DNA of 13,536 nucleotides from JAHJDO01 sp030671985 [NCBI: bacterium]. Lineage in GTDB: Bacteria; JAHJDO01. Of the stretch, positions 2,738-13,089 are shown piece by piece. The number at the start of each line of letters is the position of its first letter. The first letter of the stretch is position 1. The stretch is from positions 1-13,536 of the forward strand of contig DAOVHI010000024.1 in NCBI GenBank assembly GCA_030671985.1. Direction: 5' to 3'. Under the pieces are notes generated by a model that was given only the letters and a program-made list of their open reading frames with translations, was not told the origin of the DNA and searched no databases. The translations under genes and the position numbers were made by a program.

Positions 2738-4333
2738 ATGAATTACTATCAGGATTTATTAGAAATATATAAAATGATACCAATGGCATTGTTCGCATAT
2801 AACCGTTCGGAAAATCTACAAAGAACATTAGACTGCTTAAAAAGCAACAAAATCAATCTTTTGTATATTTTTTCTGATGGGCCCAAAAATGAAATTGATG
2901 AAGAAAAAATAAAAGAAGTTCGAAAAATGCTTGATAAAATTGATTGGGTTAAAACGGAGAAATTTTACCAAGAAAAGAATATCGGATTAAGTGAGTCAGT
3001 AATCTTTGGAGTTAATAAGGTATTTGAAAAACACGATGCAATTATATGCGTAGAAGATGATATCTGTGTTGCAAATGGATTTTACGAATATATGAAAGCG
3101 TGTTTAGGAAAATATCGGGACAATCCAAAAATAGCCGGTGTCACTGGTTTGAGATATCCAATTAAAGAAAAAAGTTTTGCAAATTGCGATTACGATATAT
3201 TCTTTTATCCGCGTTTTTCTTCATGGGGATGGGGGACATGGAAAAAAGTCTGGCAAGAATACACTTTTAACACAGACATATTGGTTAGAAAAATAGAGAA
3301 GGTTAAATGCAAAATTATTGAATCTGGAGCGGATATGATGTTAATGTATAATTCTCTGAGAACGGATAAGTTAGCGGATTCTTGGGCAGTTCCTTGCGGC
3401 CTAAACATGATAATTAATAATCAATATTTTGTATATCCAACCAGAAATATGATCGAAAATACTGGAATGACAGAGGGTACTCATGTGCGCTCAGAAAAAC
3501 CAGCATACGAATTAAAATGGTCCGAACCTATTGGCCTCAATAAGATAAGATTTCCAGAGCAAGTCATTTTAAATGAGAAAATAAAAAAAGGCATGAATGA
3601 TTTTTTTGCTAATAATAAGAGTCTGACTAAATTCAAAAGCCACCTAAAATTTTTACTTAACAAGTTTCGTAAGGTCAAACAGAAAATATTCCGCAGCAAA
3701 CCGGATCCATCAAAATATTCTACTTGTGATAATTCCCAAAAAGTGCCCTGCCAGATGGCAGCCTATAATTTAGCTTTGGATAACTATTTAAAAAAAGAGG
3801 AGAGTTGCTTAGATGTGGGATTCGGTCAAGGATATGGACTAAAAATTTTATCCCAAAAAACCAAAAAGTTGACTGGGATAGAGGTTGATAAGAGAGCAGT
3901 AAAAAGAGCGCTCAAAATATTCAAACCACAAAATATTGATATTTTACGTTATGACGGATATAACATCCCATTTAGGGATAACACATTTGATTTAGTAACC
4001 TGTATAGATGTAATTGAACATGTAGAAGATTATGACAAACTGCTTAAAGAAATGCTTCGTGTATCCAAAAAGGGAGTTTTTCTCAGCACACCCAACAGGC
4101 GGTCAGAATATACAAATCCCGACGGTACACCAAAAAACTATTGGCACCTCAGAGAGTGGTCATTTGAAGAATTTGATCACATTCTTAAAACGCATGTGCA
4201 AAATGTTGATTGGAATTTTATCGACTGGTCTTTTGAAGACCCCTTCAAATTTAATACTAAAATATCGAAAGATACATTATCTTTAGTTCCGTTTATTTGT
4301 AAGTGTAATATTGTTTTAAAAAATGATATCTGA
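2738..4333 (+). CDS. Bifunctional glycosyltransferase (GT-A fold) fused to a class I SAM methyltransferase
   Basis: A 531-residue protein with two recognisable halves. Residues about 13-290 resemble GT2-like/GNT-I-like glycosyltransferases: MIPMALFAYNRSENLQRTL (13-31), SDGPK (46-50), CVEDDI (104-109) with the acidic DXD-like metal/nucleotide-sugar motif, and the aromatic segment SSWGWGTWKKVW (161-172). Residues about 291-325 form a basic linker. Residues about 326-531 form a methyltransferase: LDVGFGQGYG (358-367) binds SAM, GIEVD (380-384) carries the acidic ribose-binding residue, and FDLVTCIDVIEHV (417-429) followed by LRVSKKGVFLSTPN (440-453) are the later family motifs. The two activities probably act in sequence, adding a sugar and then methylating it or the chain end; that order is inference. 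A strong Shine-Dalgarno site at 2722-2728 supports this start. The donor, acceptor and methylated position are unknown. Confidence 0.87.
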   Translation: MNYYQDLLEIYKMIPMALFAYNRSENLQRTLDCLKSNKINLLYIFSDGPKNEIDEEKIKEVRKMLDKIDWVKTEKFYQEKNIGLSESVIFGVNKVFEKHDAIICVEDDICVANGFYEYMKACLGKYRDNPKIAGVTGLRYPIKEKSFANCDYDIFFYPRFSSWGWGTWKKVWQEYTFNTDILVRKIEKVKCKIIESGADMMLMYNSLRTDKLADSWAVPCGLNMIINNQYFVYPTRNMIENTGMTEGTHVRSEKPAYELKWSEPIGLNKIRFPEQVILNEKIKKGMNDFFANNKSLTKFKSHLKFLLNKFRKVKQKIFRSKPDPSKYSTCDNSQKVPCQMAAYNLALDNYLKKEESCLDVGFGQGYGLKILSQKTKKLTGIEVDKRAVKRALKIFKPQNIDILRYDGYNIPFRDNTFDLVTCIDVIEHVEDYDKLLKEMLRVSKKGVFLSTPNRRSEYTNPDGTPKNYWHLREWSFEEFDHILKTHVQNVDWNFIDWSFEDPFKFNTKISKDTLSLVPFICKCNIVLKNDI

Positions 4334-4342
4334 AAAGTGAAA

Positions 4343-5068
4343 ATGAAGAAAGACATCGTTATTACTAAAGCAATAGAGGATAGATGGCGAGAAGCGCAAC
4401 AATTTGAAAAAGGTTTTGCAAAATCAACAATAAGTAGTGGAGATGACTGGAATAGATGGTGGAAAGACAAATTTGATGATTATAATATATTACGCTGGCG
4501 AACATTTCCTAACGTTTTAGAGACTGGTTGTGGCCCACACACTAATGTTAGATTTATTTTACCTATTATTCATTTCAAAAATTTGTATTTAGAAGATCCA
4601 CTTATTGAATTATATATAAAAACATACGAAAAGCGATTTCTAAGATTTTTTAAAAAGGAGCATGAGACGAATGTATCGAAATTAGTCCGGAGGTATAATG
4701 CGGTAGTAACGGAGAAGAAACTCGAAGATTTACCATTCCAGAGTGGAACAATAGATTTGCTAGTCTGCATCAATGTTCTGGATCATGTTTTCGATTTTCA
4801 TAGATGCATGGACCAAATGTGCAGGGTTTTAAAAAGAGGTGGAATCCTTATTATTGGTCAAGATTTAAGCAATGAGGAAGATAAGTCATTATGCCCTGAA
4901 TCATGGGATGATATCGGACATCCAATTAAACTTGATGAAAATACCATTTCTGATAAGCTCAGATTATTTAAGCCTTGGATGTTTAAAATTCTATCACGTG
5001 AGGAAGGACGTAACCCAACTTCACATTATGGAACTTATTTGTTTATTGGGGAAAAGGCTGAAAAATGA
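4343..5068 (+). CDS. Class I SAM-dependent methyltransferase
   Basis: A 241-residue methyltransferase of the Methyltransf_11 type, probably modifying a sugar of the glycan or its lipid carrier. Visible signs, counted from this ATG: NVLETGCGPH (57-66) as the SAM-binding loop, YLEDP (82-86) at the second strand, and LPFQSGTIDLLVCINVLDHV (130-149) followed by CRVLKRGGILIIGQDL (160-175). The glycine-rich loop reads GCGPHTN instead of the commoner GCGxG, so it is slightly divergent. A Trp-rich N-terminal part (RWREA, DDWNRWWKDKF) precedes the fold. A GTG at 4337 in the same frame is an alternative start two codons earlier; neither has a good Shine-Dalgarno site and ATG was preferred. The stop overlaps the next gene's start (ATGA at 5065-5068). 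Confidence 0.82.
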   Translation: MKKDIVITKAIEDRWREAQQFEKGFAKSTISSGDDWNRWWKDKFDDYNILRWRTFPNVLETGCGPHTNVRFILPIIHFKNLYLEDPLIELYIKTYEKRFLRFFKKEHETNVSKLVRRYNAVVTEKKLEDLPFQSGTIDLLVCINVLDHVFDFHRCMDQMCRVLKRGGILIIGQDLSNEEDKSLCPESWDDIGHPIKLDENTISDKLRLFKPWMFKILSREEGRNPTSHYGTYLFIGEKAEK

Positions 5069-6264
5069 TAATGCAAGTATTTAAAAAAATTGAGAGAAAA
5101 ACATCTTTCCTTTCTAAGGCAATAATCTATCAAGCGCTTAATAGAGACATAAATTGTCTTTATAACTATAAAGGATACTTAAAAAATAGAGAAGGTAACA
5201 AATTTAAAAGAGCTTTAGTTTCATATCGTGTTAGACCTTTATTACAGCCCCCCCCCCAAATAAGATTCAGTAATGATGGAATTGCGTTAGCTATTCCCAG
5301 AGCATTAAATGAACTTGGATATAGCGTTGATGTAGTTAACTGGGATGATTTGAATTTTGTTCCTGAAAAAAAATACGATCTGTTTATTGGTCATGGTGGG
5401 AAAAATTTTAAAAGTATTTATAAGCACTTGAATAAAGAAGCAATAGTTATATATTTCTCTACTGGAAGCTATTGGGAATTTCATAATACTCAAGAAGAAA
5501 AGCGATTTAATGATTTAAAACTCAGACGAGGAGTAATTTTGCCGTATGATCGATACATAAATAAATCAGAAGAATTTGCTAACTCTGTAGCTGATGGGAT
5601 AATCTGCTTGGGGAATCGTCATGTTGCCAAAACATATTCAAAATTTCCATTAGTTCTTAGTATAAACAATGCATCATATTACGATGATCATTATGAAAAA
5701 GCTGCAAAGGATTTTGCGAAAAATAGGAAAAATTTTCTCTTTTTTAGTGGAGGTGGAAATGTCCACAAAGGTCTTGATCTTTTATTAGAAGTGTTTTCAG
5801 GATTTGATAAAAATTTATATATATGCACTCACTTGGATTCAGAATTTAAAAAATTTTACAAGCGTGAACTTAGAGATTATCCAAACATTCTATACGTCGG
5901 TTTTATTAAAATGCGCTCCAAAAAATTTTACGATTTAATGGACAAATGTAACTATGTCATTTTTCCATCGTGTAGCGAAGGAAGTCCCGGCTCAGTAATT
6001 AATTGCTTGCAATATGGGCTGATCCCGATTGTCAGTAAAGAATCAAATCTTGATGTACATAATTACGGGATTTTACTTGAGACGTGTTCTATAGAAAATA
6101 TTACCAGAGTTATAAATAACGTATCTAACAAACCGATTGATTGGATAAAAGAAAAATCACTATTGGCAAGGAAAGCGGCCATCACAAATTATTCTGAAGA
6201 AACTTTCTTAAACAATTTGAAAAACCATATTAAGTATATCATCGAAAAAACAAGTGCTAAATAA
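5065..6264 (+). CDS. GT-B glycosyltransferase (GT4-like) with an in-frame C10 tract
   Basis: A 399-residue predicted cytoplasmic glycosyltransferase that would add a sugar to the lipid-linked oligosaccharide. The C-terminal domain is recognisable: FFSGGGNVHKGLDLLLEVF (226-244) as the nucleotide-binding entry, YVGFI (277-281), and PSCSEGSPGSVINCLQYG (301-318) then PIVSKES (321-327), the donor-binding stretch. In the E-x7-E pattern, Glu305 is kept but the second position (313) is Asn. The N-terminal acceptor domain (about 46-200) includes SYRVRPLLQPPPQIRFSNDG (53-72). The three consecutive prolines are encoded within an uninterrupted run of ten C; a change in its length would truncate the protein to about 65-70 residues. 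The start lies inside the upstream stop (ATGA), suggesting coupling. Donor and acceptor sugars are unknown. Confidence 0.85.
   Translation: MIMQVFKKIERKTSFLSKAIIYQALNRDINCLYNYKGYLKNREGNKFKRALVSYRVRPLLQPPPQIRFSNDGIALAIPRALNELGYSVDVVNWDDLNFVPEKKYDLFIGHGGKNFKSIYKHLNKEAIVIYFSTGSYWEFHNTQEEKRFNDLKLRRGVILPYDRYINKSEEFANSVADGIICLGNRHVAKTYSKFPLVLSINNASYYDDHYEKAAKDFAKNRKNFLFFSGGGNVHKGLDLLLEVFSGFDKNLYICTHLDSEFKKFYKRELRDYPNILYVGFIKMRSKKFYDLMDKCNYVIFPSCSEGSPGSVINCLQYGLIPIVSKESNLDVHNYGILLETCSIENITRVINNVSNKPIDWIKEKSLLARKAAITNYSEETFLNNLKNHIKYIIEKTSAK
5248..5257 (+). repeat. Homopolymeric C10 tract, candidate phase-variation switch
   Basis: Ten consecutive C within codons 62-65 of the glycosyltransferase gene. 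The gene is in frame at ten. At nine C the reading becomes CCC-AAA-TAA and stops; at eleven it reaches TAA after CCA-AAT-AAG-ATT-CAG. Both shifted frames therefore end within a few codons. This is the arrangement of contingency loci in Campylobacter, Helicobacter and Neisseria glycan genes. Whether it actually varies in this organism is not shown by one sequence. Confidence 0.65.
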
Positions 6265-6284: not shown

Positions 6285-7334
6285 ATGCAAACTAAAAAAG
6301 CAGCGTTTATTGATCACTCTTTTCATAAGAAAACTCTATGTACTGTTTTTCTGAAAGAATTACTGTCAACAGAATATGAACTTGTAGAATTATGGGACGA
6401 ATCATGGAAAGCAGGGAGTAGAGTAAGTGTAGAATATCTTAATAGAGAAAATTATGACACAATTTTCTTTATTCAAAATATCTTTCATCCTAAAGAACTT
6501 AAAAAATTAAATTGCAAAAACATAGTGTGGTTTCCTATGTACGACCAAGAAGAATATAGGCATTATTCTTCCTATGTTCCTTATTTGGGTCTCAATATGA
6601 AAACATTTTCTTTTTCTGAAAAATTATATGACAAACTAAAGAAAGTTGATATGGATTGTTATTATTACAAATATCACTTAAAGTCAGTCGCTCAGGTTTT
6701 ACCTAATGACGAAGCAAAAAAGGTCTTTTTCTGGATGCGTACTTCGGATGTTACGTGGGACATCGTAAAAAAATTATTGGGGGAAAATTATGAGGGAGAA
6801 ATAATCATAAAAACTACTTCTGACCCTGATTGCAAAATTGACCTTCCTTCAAAAGAAGATATAGGCAGATATAATATCAAAATAGTCAATAATTGGCTTG
6901 ATAAGGAAGAATACGACAAATTATTGTCTTCCTGTAATGTCTTTATAGCTCCAAGGCAGTTTGAAGGGATAGGAATGAGCTTTATTGAAGCATTATCCCG
7001 AGGAATCTGTGTAATTGCTCCTAATAACTCTACAATGAACGAATATATTATTCATGGAAGAAATGGGTTGTTATATGATCTAAAAAATCCGGAGGAATTA
7101 AATCTAGATAATCTTGCTGAAATACGCAAAAATACAGCAAAAACAGCAAAAGAGGATTACGAATTATGGGAAAAGGCAAAACGTCAAGTTCTTATTGATT
7201 TGGCAAAGGCGAATAAAAAATGCAAATTAATAAAATTATTATATTTTCAATTAATTCATATTTTTTTGATACCCTATGTGATTTGGGAAAAATTAATAAG
7301 AAAAATATTAAAATTTTGGCAACAGAAAGGATAA
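6285..7334 (+). CDS. GT-B glycosyltransferase (GT4-like) with C-terminal membrane-associating tail
   Basis: A 349-residue glycosyltransferase, probably acting at the cytoplasmic face of the inner membrane. The donor-binding part is clear: CNVFIAPRQFEGIGMSFIEA (217-236) has an intact E-x7-E pair (Glu227 and Glu235), followed by LSRGICVIAPNNSTMNEYI (237-255) and HGRNGLLYD (257-265). The N-terminal domain (about 1-135) is less conserved and rich in Tyr, Phe and Trp. Residues about 315-345 alternate hydrophobic and basic residues (LIKLLYFQLIHIFLIPYVIW) and look like a membrane-peripheral helix. The ATG was chosen over the in-frame TTG at 6270. The gene is followed after 4 bases by the next glycosyltransferase. 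Substrates are unknown. Confidence 0.84.
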   Translation: MQTKKAAFIDHSFHKKTLCTVFLKELLSTEYELVELWDESWKAGSRVSVEYLNRENYDTIFFIQNIFHPKELKKLNCKNIVWFPMYDQEEYRHYSSYVPYLGLNMKTFSFSEKLYDKLKKVDMDCYYYKYHLKSVAQVLPNDEAKKVFFWMRTSDVTWDIVKKLLGENYEGEIIIKTTSDPDCKIDLPSKEDIGRYNIKIVNNWLDKEEYDKLLSSCNVFIAPRQFEGIGMSFIEALSRGICVIAPNNSTMNEYIIHGRNGLLYDLKNPEELNLDNLAEIRKNTAKTAKEDYELWEKAKRQVLIDLAKANKKCKLIKLLYFQLIHIFLIPYVIWEKLIRKILKFWQQKG

Positions 7335-7338
7335 GTAA

Positions 7339-8424
7339 ATGAAAGTTCTCTTTTTGGTTGATGGGAAAGTCGGCGACAAGGGTGGAGGGGGTGCTTTTTT
7401 TCGTATATATCAGAATATTCCTATGTTAAGAAAACTAGGATTAGAAGTTGAAGTTTCCCCATCCCAACCTTCTAAGTATTACTTCCCTGAATGGATACCG
7501 CGAAACAAATTATGGGGTCGTTTTATCCTGTGTTTTTATATGTTTGCTAAGGTAGCTAATAGGTTTTGGGCGTGCCTGAGAAGCTTAAAATATGATTTGG
7601 TTTTTCTATACAGAGATCTTCTAGTTGGCGGCAATCTGCCTTTTTTGGAATTTTTTCTTAAGAAGGTGCTCAGAAAAAAGATAGTATTTGATTTTGACGA
7701 CGCTGTCTTTACGCTCTCGAAATCGTATTGCAGAAAATTTCGCCGAATTGTTGCGATGAGTGATGGAATAATCGTGGGGAATAATTACTTGAAGGAATAT
7801 GCCTCAAAATATAACCGACGCGTAATCGTTATACCAGGTACTGTAGACACAAGTCGTTATCTTCTCATGAAGAATATCAAAAGAAAAGAAATAATAATTG
7901 GCTGGATTGGACTCTACAGTAATTTTCCCTATTTGGAAGTTATGACAGATGTTTTGCATAATTTATGTGAAAAATACCCGTCTCTGTATATAAAAGTAGT
8001 TAGCTGCAACTTTCATCGTCTCTCTTTACCTGGAGTAAGGACAATATTTAAAGAGTGGTCTTTCGCTGAAGAAACAAAAGATGTCCAAACTTTTGATATT
8101 GGAATCATGCCTCTTCCGAATAATGAATGGACTCAAGGAAAGTGCGGTGGAAAACTACTGGTTTATCTAGCGTGTGGATTGGCAACAATATCATCACGTG
8201 TTTGTTCAAGTACTGAGATTGTTCAGGATGGGATAAATGGTTTTTTGGCTTCCACTAAAGCTGAGTGGGAAGAAAAACTTTCTCATCTTATTGAGAATAA
8301 AAGTTTAAGAGAATCATTTGGACAGACTGGCAGGGAAACAGTAAAAGAACGGTATTCTGTTGAAGCTAATGCCCCAAAAATGAAAAAGTTTTTACAAGAA
8401 ATTTACAGAAAATCTGCAGATTGA
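7339..8424 (+). CDS. Glycosyltransferase family 4-like protein
   Basis: A 361-residue GT-B glycosyltransferase. The N-terminus MKVLFLVDGKVGDKGGGGAF (1-20) is the first strand and glycine-rich acceptor-side loop. FDFDDAVF (117-124) is typical of a GT4 subgroup common in polysaccharide clusters. IIIGWIGLYSNFPYL (185-199) opens the donor domain, and DIGIMPLPNNEWTQGKCGGK (253-272) with LLVYLACGLATISS (273-286) is the subgroup's form of the donor-binding motif, in place of the classical E-x7-E. It ends with DGINGFLA (297-304) and a normal C-terminal helix containing RERYS-like ERYS. An AAAGGA-type ribosome site lies about seven bases before the ATG. A stretch around 60-80 is hydrophobic and may dock on the membrane. 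The sugar added is not deducible. Confidence 0.85.
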   Translation: MKVLFLVDGKVGDKGGGGAFFRIYQNIPMLRKLGLEVEVSPSQPSKYYFPEWIPRNKLWGRFILCFYMFAKVANRFWACLRSLKYDLVFLYRDLLVGGNLPFLEFFLKKVLRKKIVFDFDDAVFTLSKSYCRKFRRIVAMSDGIIVGNNYLKEYASKYNRRVIVIPGTVDTSRYLLMKNIKRKEIIIGWIGLYSNFPYLEVMTDVLHNLCEKYPSLYIKVVSCNFHRLSLPGVRTIFKEWSFAEETKDVQTFDIGIMPLPNNEWTQGKCGGKLLVYLACGLATISSRVCSSTEIVQDGINGFLASTKAEWEEKLSHLIENKSLRESFGQTGRETVKERYSVEANAPKMKKFLQEIYRKSAD

Positions 8425-8443
8425 TAGCTATAGAATAAATACT

Positions 8444-9217
8444 ATGAATTTTAGGGAACATATCACTTTTTCGTTTGGAGAGAACTGGTTGAAGTATATT
8501 AAGACTTTTGATGAAAAAAACTTCAAAGAAGCAAGACTCTCTTTGCAGGAGTTGTTGGAACTAAAAAGTTTAAAAGGGAAATCTTTCATAGATATTGGGT
8601 GTGGAAGCGGGATTTTTTCTCTGGCTGCCATAGATATGAATGCGCAGAAAGTAATAAGTTTAGATAGTGATTCCAAGAGCGTTGAAGCCGGCAACATAAT
8701 TAAGCGTAGAAATAACGCAAAACAATGGTCAATACTGGAAGGGTCAATATTAAACAAGGATTTTCTCAATAACCTTGAAATCGCGGACATTATTTATGCG
8801 TGGGGTGTACTTCATCACACTGGCGACATGTGGAAAGCTATAGACAATAGCGCTAAATTAGTAAAAAAGGAAGGTTTATTTGCCTTGGCAATTTATAATC
8901 GCTGCTGGACATCAGGGTTTTGGCTTAAATTTAAGAAACTTTACAATAACAGAGGAAGGATTATTAAAAAGATAATGGTATTTTCTATTTTTCTTCCGCG
9001 AGTTTTTGCAAGATTGATGAAATTAAAACATCCTTTTCAAGAAAAGCGAGGCATGTCAATTTACTATGATGCAGTTGATTGGGCTGGTGGATTCCCATAT
9101 GAATATGCAAAGTTTGATGAGATTGTTTCTTTCTTGAAAAAGAGAAATTTTATTCTAATTAATGGCGTTAGAACAAAGTCTATCGGGTGTAATCAATTCG
9201 TGTTTAAAAAAACATAA
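8444..9217 (+). CDS. Class I SAM-dependent methyltransferase
   Basis: A 257-residue methyltransferase. The fold signs are strong: KSFIDIGCGSGIFSL (46-60) binds SAM, ISLDSD (71-76) holds the acidic ribose contact, and IIYAWGVLHHTGDMWKAI (116-133) is the post-motif region with the His pair typical of Methyltransf_11/23 members. The later segment RGMSIYYDAVDWAGGFPYEY (202-221) recurs in methyltransferases of bacterial glycan clusters. Residues about 170-192 are hydrophobic and basic, suggesting membrane proximity. It starts 19 bases after the preceding glycosyltransferase with no strong Shine-Dalgarno site. The third position on a sugar, a lipid carrier or another acceptor could be methylated; the sequence does not say which. 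Confidence 0.85.
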   Translation: MNFREHITFSFGENWLKYIKTFDEKNFKEARLSLQELLELKSLKGKSFIDIGCGSGIFSLAAIDMNAQKVISLDSDSKSVEAGNIIKRRNNAKQWSILEGSILNKDFLNNLEIADIIYAWGVLHHTGDMWKAIDNSAKLVKKEGLFALAIYNRCWTSGFWLKFKKLYNNRGRIIKKIMVFSIFLPRVFARLMKLKHPFQEKRGMSIYYDAVDWAGGFPYEYAKFDEIVSFLKKRNFILINGVRTKSIGCNQFVFKKT

Positions 9218-9231
9218 GAAAATTAAATAAA

Positions 9232-11151
9232 ATGTGTGGAATTTGCGGGATTTTAAATACAAGTCTTAACGGCAATATCAAAGAAGAAACAGTACGAAGC
9301 ATGTGTTCCGTGCTGAAGCATAGAGGTCCCGATGATGAAGGGATATATCTTGGCTGGGGAAAAGACGGCAGGAAGAATGTAGGACTTGGAATAAGACGAC
9401 TTGCTATCATTGATCCGGATACAGGCCATCAGCCGATTCACAATGAAGAAAGAACGATATGGACTGTGTGTAACGGCGAGATCTATAATTTTCGCGAACT
9501 AAGGAAAGATTTAGAAGCTAAAGGACATTGTTTTTATACACACAGCGATGCTGAGGTTATTGTTCATTTATATGAGGAATATGGTGTTGAGTGTTTAAAT
9601 TTTCTGCGCGGTATGTTTGCGCTTGCCGTGTGGGATGATGGAAAGAAGAGCCTTCTTTTAGCAAGAGATAGAATAGGACAGAAGCCTTTGTGCTATGCGG
9701 AAATTGACAATGAACTGGTTTTTGCTTCTGAGATAAAATCAATTTTACAGGTAAAACAAGTTCCAAGACAAGTAAACATAGAAGCCATTCATAATTATCT
9801 TACCTATCAGTACGTTCCTTCACCGATAACCGCTTTTAAAGGCATCTCTAAACTGCCTCCTGCTCATTATTTGTTGTGGGAAAACGGGAAAATCTCAATT
9901 GAGCAATATTGGAATTTGAACGCGGCAAACAAGATTAGGATGTCAGAGAATGAATATTGCTCGCGCCTCAGAAACTTGTTTGAGGAATCCGTAAAGCTTA
10001 GACTTGTCAGCGATGTGCCTTTGGGTGCTTTTCTGAGCGGAGGACTTGATTCAAGTATCGTAGTTGGTGTTATGAGTAAGCTTATGAGTGAACCTGTTAA
10101 AACTTTTTCAATAGGATTTCAGGAAGAGAAATACAACGAACTTAAATATGCGCGGATCGCTGCGAATCATTTTAAAACCGATCATCATGAGTATATTGTA
10201 AAACCGGACGCTCTTGATATTTTACCTAAGCTCATATGGCATTATAATGAGCCTTTTGCGGATTCGTCTGCGCTTCCCACTTACTATGTTGCAAAGATGA
10301 CTAGCCGAGACGTAACAGTTGCATTGAATGGAGATGGAGGGGATGAGAGCTTTGCAGGATATCCGCGTTATAAAGCTGTAAAACTGGCTAAGTATTATGA
10401 AAAATTTCCACAATCTATACGTAATATGGTTAACGGTATTGCAATGAAGCTTCCCTATTCTACTGAACAAAAAACAGTACTTCGCCGTTTTAGGAGATTT
10501 GCCGAATCTATGAATTATTCTCCCGAAAGACGATATATTCGCTGGATATCCATTTTTGACAATGAAAGAAAAAAGGAGCTTTACGCATCATCTTTCAGAG
10601 AAGCGGTTCAGGGTATTGATTCATTTGGTTATGCGGAAAGCTATTATAACAATAACTCTTACAGCGATTTTTTGGACAGAACGCTTTTTGTTGATATTAT
10701 GACATACCTTCCCGGGGACCTGCTTGTAAAAATGGATATAGCTGCAATGGCAAACTCTCTGGAGGCGCGCTCTCCTTTTCTTGATCACAAGTTCATGGAG
10801 TTTGCCGCATCTATTCCCCCTAATCTTAAGTTAAAGGGACTTAGCGGCAAGTATATTCTAAAAAAAGCGTTTTCAAAACTTGTTCCCGCATCTATACTCA
10901 AACGCAGGAAAATGGGATTCGGCGTGCCTATCAGTCATTGGTTTAGAAATGAGCTTAAGGATTATCTTCGGGACGAGCTTCTTTCGAGACGCTGTTTGGA
11001 AAGAGGATATTTTCAGACAAAATATCTGAAACTAATTATTGATGAACACATTAATGGACGCTATGATCATGGATACAGGCTCTGGGCTCTTCTTAATCTG
11101 GAGCTCTGGCAGCAGATGTTTATTGATAAAGTTTCGGATAACAAAACGTAG
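9232..11151 (+). CDS. asnB: Asparagine synthase (glutamine-hydrolysing) / glycan-associated amidotransferase
   Basis: A 639-residue two-domain enzyme. Residues 1 to about 210 form a class II glutaminase: MCGICGI supplies the nucleophile Cys2 after Met removal, with RGPD (31-34) and NGEIYN (81-86). Residues about 240-620 form the ATP-dependent synthetase: SGGLDSS (269-275) is the PP-loop, followed by EPFADSSALPTYY (340-352), GDGGDE (367-372), LLVKMDIAAMANSLEARSPF (497-516) and RRKMGFGVP (558-566). Ammonia from glutamine would be moved to an AMP-activated carboxylate. The canonical product is asparagine. Similar enzymes in polysaccharide clusters amidate uronic acids (for example WbpS of Pseudomonas O-antigen), which fits the location here, but the sequence alone does not separate the two. 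It lies 14 bases after the methyltransferase, without a clear ribosome site, and its GC content is higher than the genes before it. Confidence 0.93.
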   Translation: MCGICGILNTSLNGNIKEETVRSMCSVLKHRGPDDEGIYLGWGKDGRKNVGLGIRRLAIIDPDTGHQPIHNEERTIWTVCNGEIYNFRELRKDLEAKGHCFYTHSDAEVIVHLYEEYGVECLNFLRGMFALAVWDDGKKSLLLARDRIGQKPLCYAEIDNELVFASEIKSILQVKQVPRQVNIEAIHNYLTYQYVPSPITAFKGISKLPPAHYLLWENGKISIEQYWNLNAANKIRMSENEYCSRLRNLFEESVKLRLVSDVPLGAFLSGGLDSSIVVGVMSKLMSEPVKTFSIGFQEEKYNELKYARIAANHFKTDHHEYIVKPDALDILPKLIWHYNEPFADSSALPTYYVAKMTSRDVTVALNGDGGDESFAGYPRYKAVKLAKYYEKFPQSIRNMVNGIAMKLPYSTEQKTVLRRFRRFAESMNYSPERRYIRWISIFDNERKKELYASSFREAVQGIDSFGYAESYYNNNSYSDFLDRTLFVDIMTYLPGDLLVKMDIAAMANSLEARSPFLDHKFMEFAASIPPNLKLKGLSGKYILKKAFSKLVPASILKRRKMGFGVPISHWFRNELKDYLRDELLSRRCLERGYFQTKYLKLIIDEHINGRYDHGYRLWALLNLELWQQMFIDKVSDNKT

Positions 11152-11220: not shown

Positions 11221-11294
11221 GGGCGATTAGCTCAGTCTGGGAGAGCGCCTGCCTTACAAGCAGGATGTCACTGGTTCAAACCCAGTATCGCCCA
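11221..11294 (+). tRNA. tRNA-Val (anticodon UAC)
   Basis: The complete cloverleaf can be drawn. The acceptor stem GGGCGAT (11221-11227) pairs fully with ATCGCCC (11287-11293). The D stem is GCTC/GAGC, the anticodon stem CCTGC/GCAGG, the loop CTTACAA with anticodon TAC at 11255-11257, and the T arm ACTGG-TTCAAAC-CCAGT. The discriminator base is A at 11294, followed by CCG, so the terminal CCA is not fully encoded and must be completed by the nucleotidyltransferase. It reads GUA and probably other valine codons. Confidence 0.97.
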
Positions 11295-11296
11295 CC

Positions 11297-11319
11297 GAAA
11301 ATGACCTGCGGTCATTTTC
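11297..11319 (+). other. Perfect 10-bp hairpin between the two tRNA genes
   Basis: GAAAATGACC (11297-11306) and GGTCATTTTC (11310-11319) are exact reverse complements around a TGC loop. The hairpin fills most of the 33-base spacer. It could be a processing signal that separates the tRNA precursors, or a weak intrinsic terminator with its T-tract (TTTTCT) inside the lower stem. No T-run follows the full stem, which argues against efficient termination. Confidence 0.7.
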
Positions 11320-11327
11320 TGATAGCT

Positions 11328-11405
11328 GGGGGCGTAGCTCAACTTGGTTAGAGTACCAGATTGTCGATCTGGGTGTTGCGGGTTCGAGTCCCGTCGCTCC
11401 CGCCA
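11328..11405 (+). tRNA. tRNA-Asp (anticodon GUC), CCA encoded
   Basis: The acceptor stem GGGGGCG (11328-11334) pairs with CGCTCCC (11395-11401) with one G-T wobble. The D stem is GCTC/GAGT, the anticodon stem CCAGA/TCTGG, the loop TTGTCGA with anticodon GTC at 11363-11365, and the T arm GCGGG-TTCGAGT-CCCGT. The discriminator is G (11402), as expected for aspartate, followed by encoded CCA (11403-11405). The gene ends only 19 bases before the ilvD start codon, so its 3' processing would also create the 5' end of the ilvD message. Confidence 0.97.
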
Positions 11406-11424: not shown

Positions 11425-13089
11425 ATGCGTAGTGATCTAATGAAAAAGGGAATCTCCAGAGCGCCTCATCGCTCGCTTTTGAAAGCTAGCGGCTATAGCG
11501 ATAAAGAGCTTTCAAGACCTATCATAGGCATAGCAAATTCCTTTAATGAGATCATTCCCGGGCATATCCATCTCAATCAAATAGTTAAAGCTGTTAAAGC
11601 AGGTGTTTATATGAGCGGTGGAACACCTATGGAGTTTGGTGTAATTGGTGTATGTGACGGTATTGCAATGAATCATGAAGGCATGAAATATTCTCTTCCC
11701 TCAAGAGAACTAATTGCGGACTCAATAGAAGTTATGGCAAGAGCGCATCCTTTTGACGGTCTTGTACTTGTTACTAATTGCGACAAAATCGTTCCCGGCA
11801 TGCTTATGTCAGCGCTTAGATTAAATATTCCAGCAATCATAATAAGCGGCGGGCCTATGATGGCAGGCAAAATAGGGAAAGAGGCAATAGATCTAATAAG
11901 TGTTTTTGAGGCAGTTGGGGCTGTGGCAGGAGGCAAGATGAGCGAAAAAGAGCTTCTTGAAATAGAGGAGAAGGCATGTCCTGGATGCGGTTCATGTTCC
12001 GGCATGTTCACTGCGAACTCAATGAACTGCCTTAGCGAAGCATTAGGTTTGGGACTGCCGGGAAACGGCACGATCCCTGCTGTTGACGCCGGAAGAATAA
12101 GACTTGCCAAAGAAACGGGTGCAAAAATAATTGAGCTCATAAAGAAAAATATTAAGCCGAGGGATATTGCGACACTTGACGCTTTTAAAAATGCGATAGC
12201 TGTGGAGATGGCGCTTGGCAGTTCAACCAATACGGTTCTTCATTTGCCGGCTATTGCAAACGAGGCCGGAATAGAATTTGATCTCAGCCTTTTTGATAAA
12301 ATAAGTAAGAAGGTGCCGAATCTGTGCCGGCTGTCACCTGCGGGGAAACATCATATGGAAGACCTTGATCAGGCAGGAGGAGTGCACGCTGTAATGGCAG
12401 AGATAAACAAACTGGGAGTAATAAATAAGAAGTGCTTAACTGTAACGACTAAGAAAGTTGCTGATAATATTGCGGGATGCGAGATTTTTAATAAAGAGGT
12501 TATTCGACCGGTAAGCGAGCCTTATTCTAAAGAGGGAGGAATTGCCATACTAAGAGGGAATCTAGCGTCGGATGGAGCTGTTATTAAACAGTCTGCTGTT
12601 AGTCCTAATATGATGAAACATTCAGGACCTGCAAGAGTTTTTGATTCGGAAGAAGAAGCTATGAAAGATATAATGAATAAAAAAATCAAGAGTGGAGATG
12701 TTATTGTTCTTCGTTATGAAGGTCCAAAGGGTGGCCCGGGAATGAGAGAAGGACTTTCTCCTACTGCGGCGCTTGCAGGCATTGGGCTTGCGGATAGTGT
12801 AGCTCTATTAACTGATGGCAGATTCTCAGGCGGTACGCGTGGAGCGGCTATTGGACATATATCTCCCGAAGCGGCTGAGGGCGGACCGCTCGCTATAGTA
12901 AAAGACGGCGACATTATTGAAATAGACATACCACGTAGAGAGTTAAATATTAAGTTAACAAATGAAGAAATTAAAAACAGATTGGATAAGTGGAAGAGAC
13001 CTGAGCCAAAAATAAAGTCAGGATATATGTATCGATATTCACAGATGGTGTCTTCGGCAAGTTCCGGAGCAGTATTTAAAAAGAGGTGA
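11425..13089 (+). CDS. ilvD: Dihydroxy-acid dehydratase
   Basis: Iron-sulfur dehydratase of valine, isoleucine and, indirectly, leucine and CoA synthesis; it converts 2,3-dihydroxy-3-methylbutanoate or -pentanoate to the 2-keto acid in the cytoplasm. The 554 residues match the family's usual length. Landmarks: [13 protein letters not shown] (11-23), [13 protein letters not shown] (38-50), [13 protein letters not shown] (75-87), [10 protein letters not shown] (117-126) with cluster ligand Cys119, [16 protein letters not shown] (185-200) with further Cys, EGPKGGPGM (432-440), and GRFSGGTRG (465-473) including the Ser proposed as catalytic base. The PGH at 45-47 resembles E. coli-type dehydratases, not the PCN form of many [2Fe-2S] enzymes, so an oxygen-sensitive [4Fe-4S] cluster is plausible; this is inference. 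ilvB follows after 4 bases. Its GC content is clearly above that of the glycan genes. Confidence 0.97.

Follow-up and report, generated by a model that had tools for sequence, protein, structure and literature searches.

A ten-cytosine run in a glycosyltransferase gene of an uncultured bacterial lineage: a presumably mutation-prone, possibly mainly incidental tract

The described systems that come closest to the sequence considered here, a run of ten cytosines (C10) in a predicted glycosyltransferase gene, are the poly-G/C phase-variable genes of Campylobacter, the siaD C7 tract of Neisseria meningitidis and the mga C8 tract of group A Streptococcus, all drawn below from excerpts of the published reports. 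The tract lies on contig DAOVHI010000024.1 (contig C147 of draft genome G000; 1.25 Mb, 152 contigs, 92% complete), and this whole contig of 13,536 nucleotides is the window that was analysed. As in the excerpted Campylobacter cases (PMC6321876), a mononucleotide G/C run of 9-10 sits in a gene and one-base slips truncate the product; what differs is that here we have one poly-C tract in a glycan-type gene, known from one assembly. The siaD tract is described in the excerpts as an accidental, mutation-prone tract (PMC11868660, PMC5953494), and it shares with ours the poly-C run in a glycan-synthesis gene and the lack of any sign of evolved mutability. Chance is taken to explain siaD because the meningococcal genome has about 40 C7/G7 loci, whereas C10 is longer and rarer in its genome and therefore deserves more credit as a candidate, although no direct sign of switching was seen. 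In mga, likewise a coding poly-C run where one-base slips shift the frame, reversible switching was shown by variants and revertants (excerpt of PMC10330708), but mga is a regulator gene and ours is a glycosyltransferase known from sequence alone. C10 exceeds the excerpted cut-offs for phase-variable tracts, which are 7 or more for G/C runs in Campylobacter (PMC6321876) and more than 8 in Bordetella (PMC1891110); the excerpted definition of phase variation asks for a single locus, reversibility and a detectable rate (PMC11868660). A literature search that paired phase variation through repeat tracts with terms for metagenomes or uncultivated organisms found no paper. On the evidence presented below, the tract is at most one more candidate for a well-known kind of switch.

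The features on which the argument turns are the following:

5248 to 5257, forward strand: C10 homopolymer, presumably slippage-prone, covering codons 62-64 (Pro-Pro-Pro) and the first base of codon 65.
5065 to 6264, forward strand: glycosyltransferase gene of 399 amino acids, GT4-type (PF00534), with a predicted GT-B fold.
5707 to 6135, forward strand: Glycos_transf_1 domain (Pfam), residues 215-357, absent from the C9 and C11 forms.
5248 to 5268, forward strand: loop of codons 62-68, with a predicted local distance difference test (pLDDT) score below 50, between strand 49-54 and helix 71-83, varying among homologues.

What an earlier note had read directly from the letters holds up well. C10 is present in the assembly at 5248-5257, the line 5401-5460 has 11 G/C of 60, and the tract codons (CAG CCC CCC CCC CAA) spell all three prolines as CCC, while the ten other prolines of the gene use CCG three times, CCA three times, CCT twice and CCC twice. 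A scripted frame test over tract lengths 6 to 15 likewise bears out the reported frame effects: the frame is open at C7, C10 and C13, is lost at C9 and C11 with stops after 65 and 69 amino acids respectively, and at the remaining lengths ends after 64 to 70. The placement is that expected of a phase-variable locus: the run falls within the first sixth of the reading frame, and either one-base slip would end the protein before its catalytic domain. Switching is mechanistically possible, and slips would inactivate the enzyme. C10 is also the longest C or G run of the window, the next longest being 5, and the other repeats amount to A8 and T7 runs and some weak arrays, each with two or three imperfect copies. 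A protein search of the G000 assembly for a second allele of the gene returned a single match only.

The most direct evidence on the history of the tract comes from four other genomes of the phylum (G001-G004), which belong with G000 to one genus. An orthologue is present in one of the four (G003:C54:8113-9315, locus L011; 57% identity over the alignment), where it adjoins the orthologue of the following glycosyltransferase and has the same amidotransferase and ilvD downstream; searches of G001, G002 and G004 gave no orthologue, only distant glycosyltransferase matches or none. The G003 gene aligns without gaps across the site with an equal number of codons, reading ATC TCT CCC CAA AGA, and lacks the tract, its longest C/G run in the loop being 4. 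Because the codon number is equal, C10 is, as judged from this alignment, the full-length (ON) length. The surrounding 195-base block (KRALVSY..LFIGHGG) contains no indels; 9 of the 15 bases in the five tract codons differ from G003, compared with 22 of the 180 bases in the rest of the block (permutation scan over the block, P 0.003, the five codons having been picked post hoc). Retention of the tract in related genomes, a supporting rather than an obligatory mark of a phase-variable locus, was thus not seen, although with one orthologue at 57% identity this is a weak test.

More distant relatives give a similar picture. A two-row profile search of 385 genomes found six with a match at E 1e-10 or better, including the window's own and G003, and the loop was checked at the DNA level in the other four and in L041, which is 32% identical and ungapped against the window protein at the site, in keeping with C10 as the ON length. 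None of these five further homologues (28-32% identity) has Pro-Pro-Pro at the site, C/G runs within the loop reach no more than 2 or 3 in them, and their loops range from one residue shorter to three longer; with G003 included, none of six has three prolines or a C/G run over four there. Pro63 is common to G003 and L115, each with Ser before it where the window protein has Pro62-Pro63, and L117 has prolines at flanking positions. The earlier note had named orthologues that conserve the three prolines with mixed codons as a finding that would count against switching; the orthologue keeps only Pro63. The shared Ser-Pro makes it plausible, as far as the alignment goes, that the run grew by substitutions on either side of an older CCC proline codon. 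Searches of viral contigs, plasmids and phages yielded no relatives, and GTDB contigs yielded one, distant.

Taken together, these data incline us, if only slightly, towards a mutation-prone and mainly incidental tract caught in its ON state. C10 would have formed recently in an accessory GT4-type glycosyltransferase, within a loop where the structure tolerates change; since the loop is tolerant, the run could lengthen harmlessly for as long as the frame holds. Once formed, it would gain and lose single Cs by strand slippage oftener than ordinary sequence, as do other long mononucleotide runs, at a rate that is presumably raised, and the slips would reversibly truncate the protein and remove its catalytic domain. 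The transferred sugar probably goes onto a surface glycan. By analogy with siaD C7, the site would thus be mainly incidental rather than a selected switch.

How unexpected is a run of ten? The probability of a C or G run of at least ten per window is 1.8e-3 with independent bases, and 6e-3, 1.9e-3 and 9e-4 under first-, second- and third-order chains. An earlier figure of about 3 in 10,000 windows therefore understated the chance roughly 3- to 20-fold (0.9 to 6 per 1000 when recomputed), because G makes up 21% of the window. A hand tally of the C/G runs of at least 6 in G000 gives 54 of length 6, three of length 7, and one each of 8, 9 and 10. Runs of at least 9 are present in 50 of the 59 genomes searched, G000 included. 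The genome G045, with 519 C9 matches and a C11 in an EptA-type gene at its sampled locus (32% G+C), may show what a tract-rich genome looks like.

A census of the genus shows where such runs fall. Among 31 G/C runs of at least 8 in the five genomes, 16 lie in coding sequence, with classes assigned by hand from open reading frames (ORFs) and Pfam; two of the 31, one of them coding, are on G002 contigs of 65-69% G+C and may be contamination. Six of the 16 are plainly in housekeeping genes (ribosomal protein L25, DnaJ, PyrK, an amino acid kinase, glycine dehydrogenase and an ATP synthase subunit), and three are possibly surface-related, namely the tract gene, a lipid A acyltransferase (G8 at the tenth codon) and a carbohydrate-binding protein. 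The remainder fall in genes for a secretion protein, a transporter, two signalling proteins and a D12-class DNA methyltransferase, in the possible contaminant (sigma-54 type) and in a repeat-type ORF. The G9 in pyrK of G001, encoding Gly-Gly-Gly, is clearly incidental, since the four other genomes spell these residues with mixed codons. The earlier note had suggested looking for further G/C tracts of at least 8 in surface genes of the same genome; G000 has only two runs of at least 9, C10 and a G9. The latter (G000:C86:4216-4224) lies in a repeat-type ORF (L001) that is open across the 3 kb locus, encodes at least 1002 amino acids (repeats seen by eye) and has no Pfam or NCBIfam match.

Several observations weigh against an incidental origin. 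Geometric extrapolation from the run spectrum of G000 expects 0.002 to 0.05 runs of at least 10; one is seen, so C10 is above chance for this genome. Only 4 of the 11 runs of at least 9 in the genus are coding, and the location of C10 inside a glycosyltransferase may therefore not be an accident. Phase variation is known among acyltransferases and among DNA methyltransferases, for which reason the coding-strand G8 runs early in the lipid A acyltransferase gene (L091:1578-1585, G003:C69) and in the D12-class DNA adenine methyltransferase gene (L085:1678-1685, G002:C128) speak somewhat against pure accident. Both C10 runs inside genes of the genus encode Pro-Pro-Pro. Outside the genus, where 25 run loci were collected and 10 of their proteins run against Pfam, three of the ten (PMT, polysaccharide export, EptA) count as envelope or glycan proteins, the other seven being of a different class or unmatched, one a putative glucoamylase. 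Finally, the word "recent" depends on one orthologue, in a mosaic gene (see below).

The strongest alternative is that the gene is a phase-variable contingency locus in which selection keeps C10 because turning one glycan sugar ON or OFF helps against phages, grazers or other surface-binding agents. We regard this as possible, yet on balance improbable. It fits a glycosyltransferase that sits among polysaccharide-type genes, a tract so early in the gene that its OFF states are truncated, and a run beyond the genome's own spectrum; lengths of 9-10 are the commonest in Campylobacter phasomes (excerpt of PMC6321876), and mga shows that coding poly-C can switch (excerpt of PMC10330708). Against it, and against the earlier note's assertion that the cell switches one surface-glycan sugar on and off, which the data do not bear out, stand the single copy in the assembly with no variant seen, the orthologue without a tract, and the presence of mismatch-repair genes. 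In addition, no second tract of at least 9 was found in a recognisable surface gene of G000 (such companions are usual, not obligatory, for phase-variable genomes), housekeeping genes of sister genomes also contain G/C runs of 8 or 9, and the number of C9 matches in G000 is exceeded in 34 of the 58 other genomes (a by-eye count of overlapping matches, raw for size and G+C).

With respect to repair, MutL and MutS families are matched in all five genomes; in G000, MutL matches nearly the whole model and MutS only the C-terminal part, at a contig end. Repair genes are compatible with switching, because Neisseria switch with mismatch repair present, but they provide one reason fewer to expect very high switching rates. 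Among residues conserved with G003, the share of identical codons is 0.27-0.58 over codons 119-357 of the tract gene and 0.68-1.00 over codons 59-118 and 358-399; for the next gene, asnB and ilvD it is mostly 0.5 to 0.9. This pattern suggests that the tract gene is a mosaic produced by recombination inside the gene. Between the second glycosyltransferase and the amidotransferase, window 7339-9217 and L011:10404-12645 hold different genes, a glycosyltransferase and a methyltransferase in the window and two glycosyltransferase-like genes (by eye) in G003; by eye, this looks like a variable glycan cassette beside a common asnB-ilvD flank. The variation visible at this locus, as far as these two genomes reveal it, is exchange of gene pieces and not tract slippage.

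A third explanation, which we consider unlikely, is that the run or its length is a sequencing or assembly error, or that the assembler picked one of several lengths. The source is a draft and homopolymers are error-prone, but C10 agrees exactly with the orthologue in frame and in number of codons, where a length set at random would preserve the frame in one case out of three, and the 195-base block aligns without indels. Least probable is a function of the three prolines in the protein, as a polyproline stall or a rigid loop tuning translation or activity with the DNA run as by-product: proline runs are known EF-P-dependent stalls, Pro63 is shared with two of the six homologues and the second coding C10 in the genus likewise encodes Pro-Pro-Pro, but no homologue has all three prolines, the loop is of low confidence in the model, and protein-level selection would not require every codon to be CCC.

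The assignment of the gene as a glycosyltransferase, made earlier from the translation, is borne out by Pfam, with a PF00534 match of 33.7 bits against a curated cut-off of 26.4. An AlphaFold2 model built from seven aligned sequences has a mean pLDDT of 81.8 and a predicted template modelling (pTM) score of 0.80, and it matches GT-B glycosyltransferases such as glycogen synthase and BshA, the best Foldseek hits being 3l01 and 3mbo (E about 1e-11, template modelling score 0.55-0.62). In the predicted structure, the tract loop separates the first strand from the first long helix of the GT-B fold. Compared with GT4-type GT-B enzymes of known structure (glycogen synthase, BshA, HepE), the gene product has in common a Glycos_transf_1 match over cut-off, the GT-B matches and the first Glu of EX7E, but represents a divergent subfamily, sharing 9-15% identity with the 50 best structural matches listed. 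The EX7E motif of GT4-type enzymes, which we take to lie at window 5977-6003, has its first Glu (E305) in all six alignment rows that reach the site, while the second position over the six rows is N, E, S, Q, T and S, that is, Asn in the window protein and Glu only in G003.

The neighbouring genes that bear on the locus are:

4337 to 5068, forward strand: methyltransferase gene, with a 4-base overlap with the start of the tract-bearing gene.
6285 to 7334, forward strand: next glycosyltransferase gene, syntenic with the neighbour of the G003 orthologue.
9232 to 11151, forward strand: asparagine-synthase-like amidotransferase gene, also to the right of the orthologue in G003.

Since the window neighbours are of polysaccharide type (an epimerase, a flippase-type polysaccharide-synthesis protein, methyltransferases, two further glycosyltransferases and the amidotransferase, the best NCBIfam match of which is of XrtA/PEP-CTERM type and below cut-off), a polysaccharide locus is a fair reading. 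The ORF at 2738-4333 has a C-terminal methyltransferase domain and in its N-terminal half only a sub-threshold GNT-I match, and is perhaps a glycosyltransferase-methyltransferase fusion. Between the amidotransferase and ilvD, at 11221-11405, lie tRNA-Val (tac) and tRNA-Asp (gtc). As the TTG listed as the start of the ilvD ORF, at 11344, falls inside tRNA-Asp, the ATG at 11425 is the likelier start.

Some of the other runs in the genus merit mention in their own right. The C10 of G002 (L087:1658-1667, G002:C140) encodes Pro-Pro-Pro directly after a histidine kinase ATPase domain, joining the kinase to a GYF-receiver protein; in the G003 counterpart (L120, G003:C24) the two genes are separate, with a gene end and a spacer, and one-base slips in G002 could unfuse the proteins. 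A G15 (L076:125-155, G002:C17) and a G12 (L083:1635-1662, G002:C121) lie near contig ends, each beside CTTAACTTAACACGTA but in opposite orientation to that sequence, and may represent a mobile-element end or an assembly effect. The G8 runs at L073:2762-2769 (FMN reductase) and L095:1622-1629 (PhoU-like) are located just before likely start codons, a position in which they might act as a ribosome-binding site or interfere with one.

The boldest form of the switching hypothesis is that a lineage with mismatch-repair genes uses a single, newly formed poly-C run in a disordered loop as a reversible switch of one extracellular-polysaccharide sugar, in addition to recombination at the locus, and this strikes us as rather unlikely. 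If it is true, simple-sequence switching of surface sugars would extend from well-studied host-associated bacteria to an uncultured lineage and, as one sister genome carries a tract-free copy of the gene, the switch would have been caught soon after it arose. If the tract is incidental, it would offer a useful caution, as G/C runs of eight or nine in this genus also occur in ribosomal, chaperone and pyrimidine-synthesis genes.
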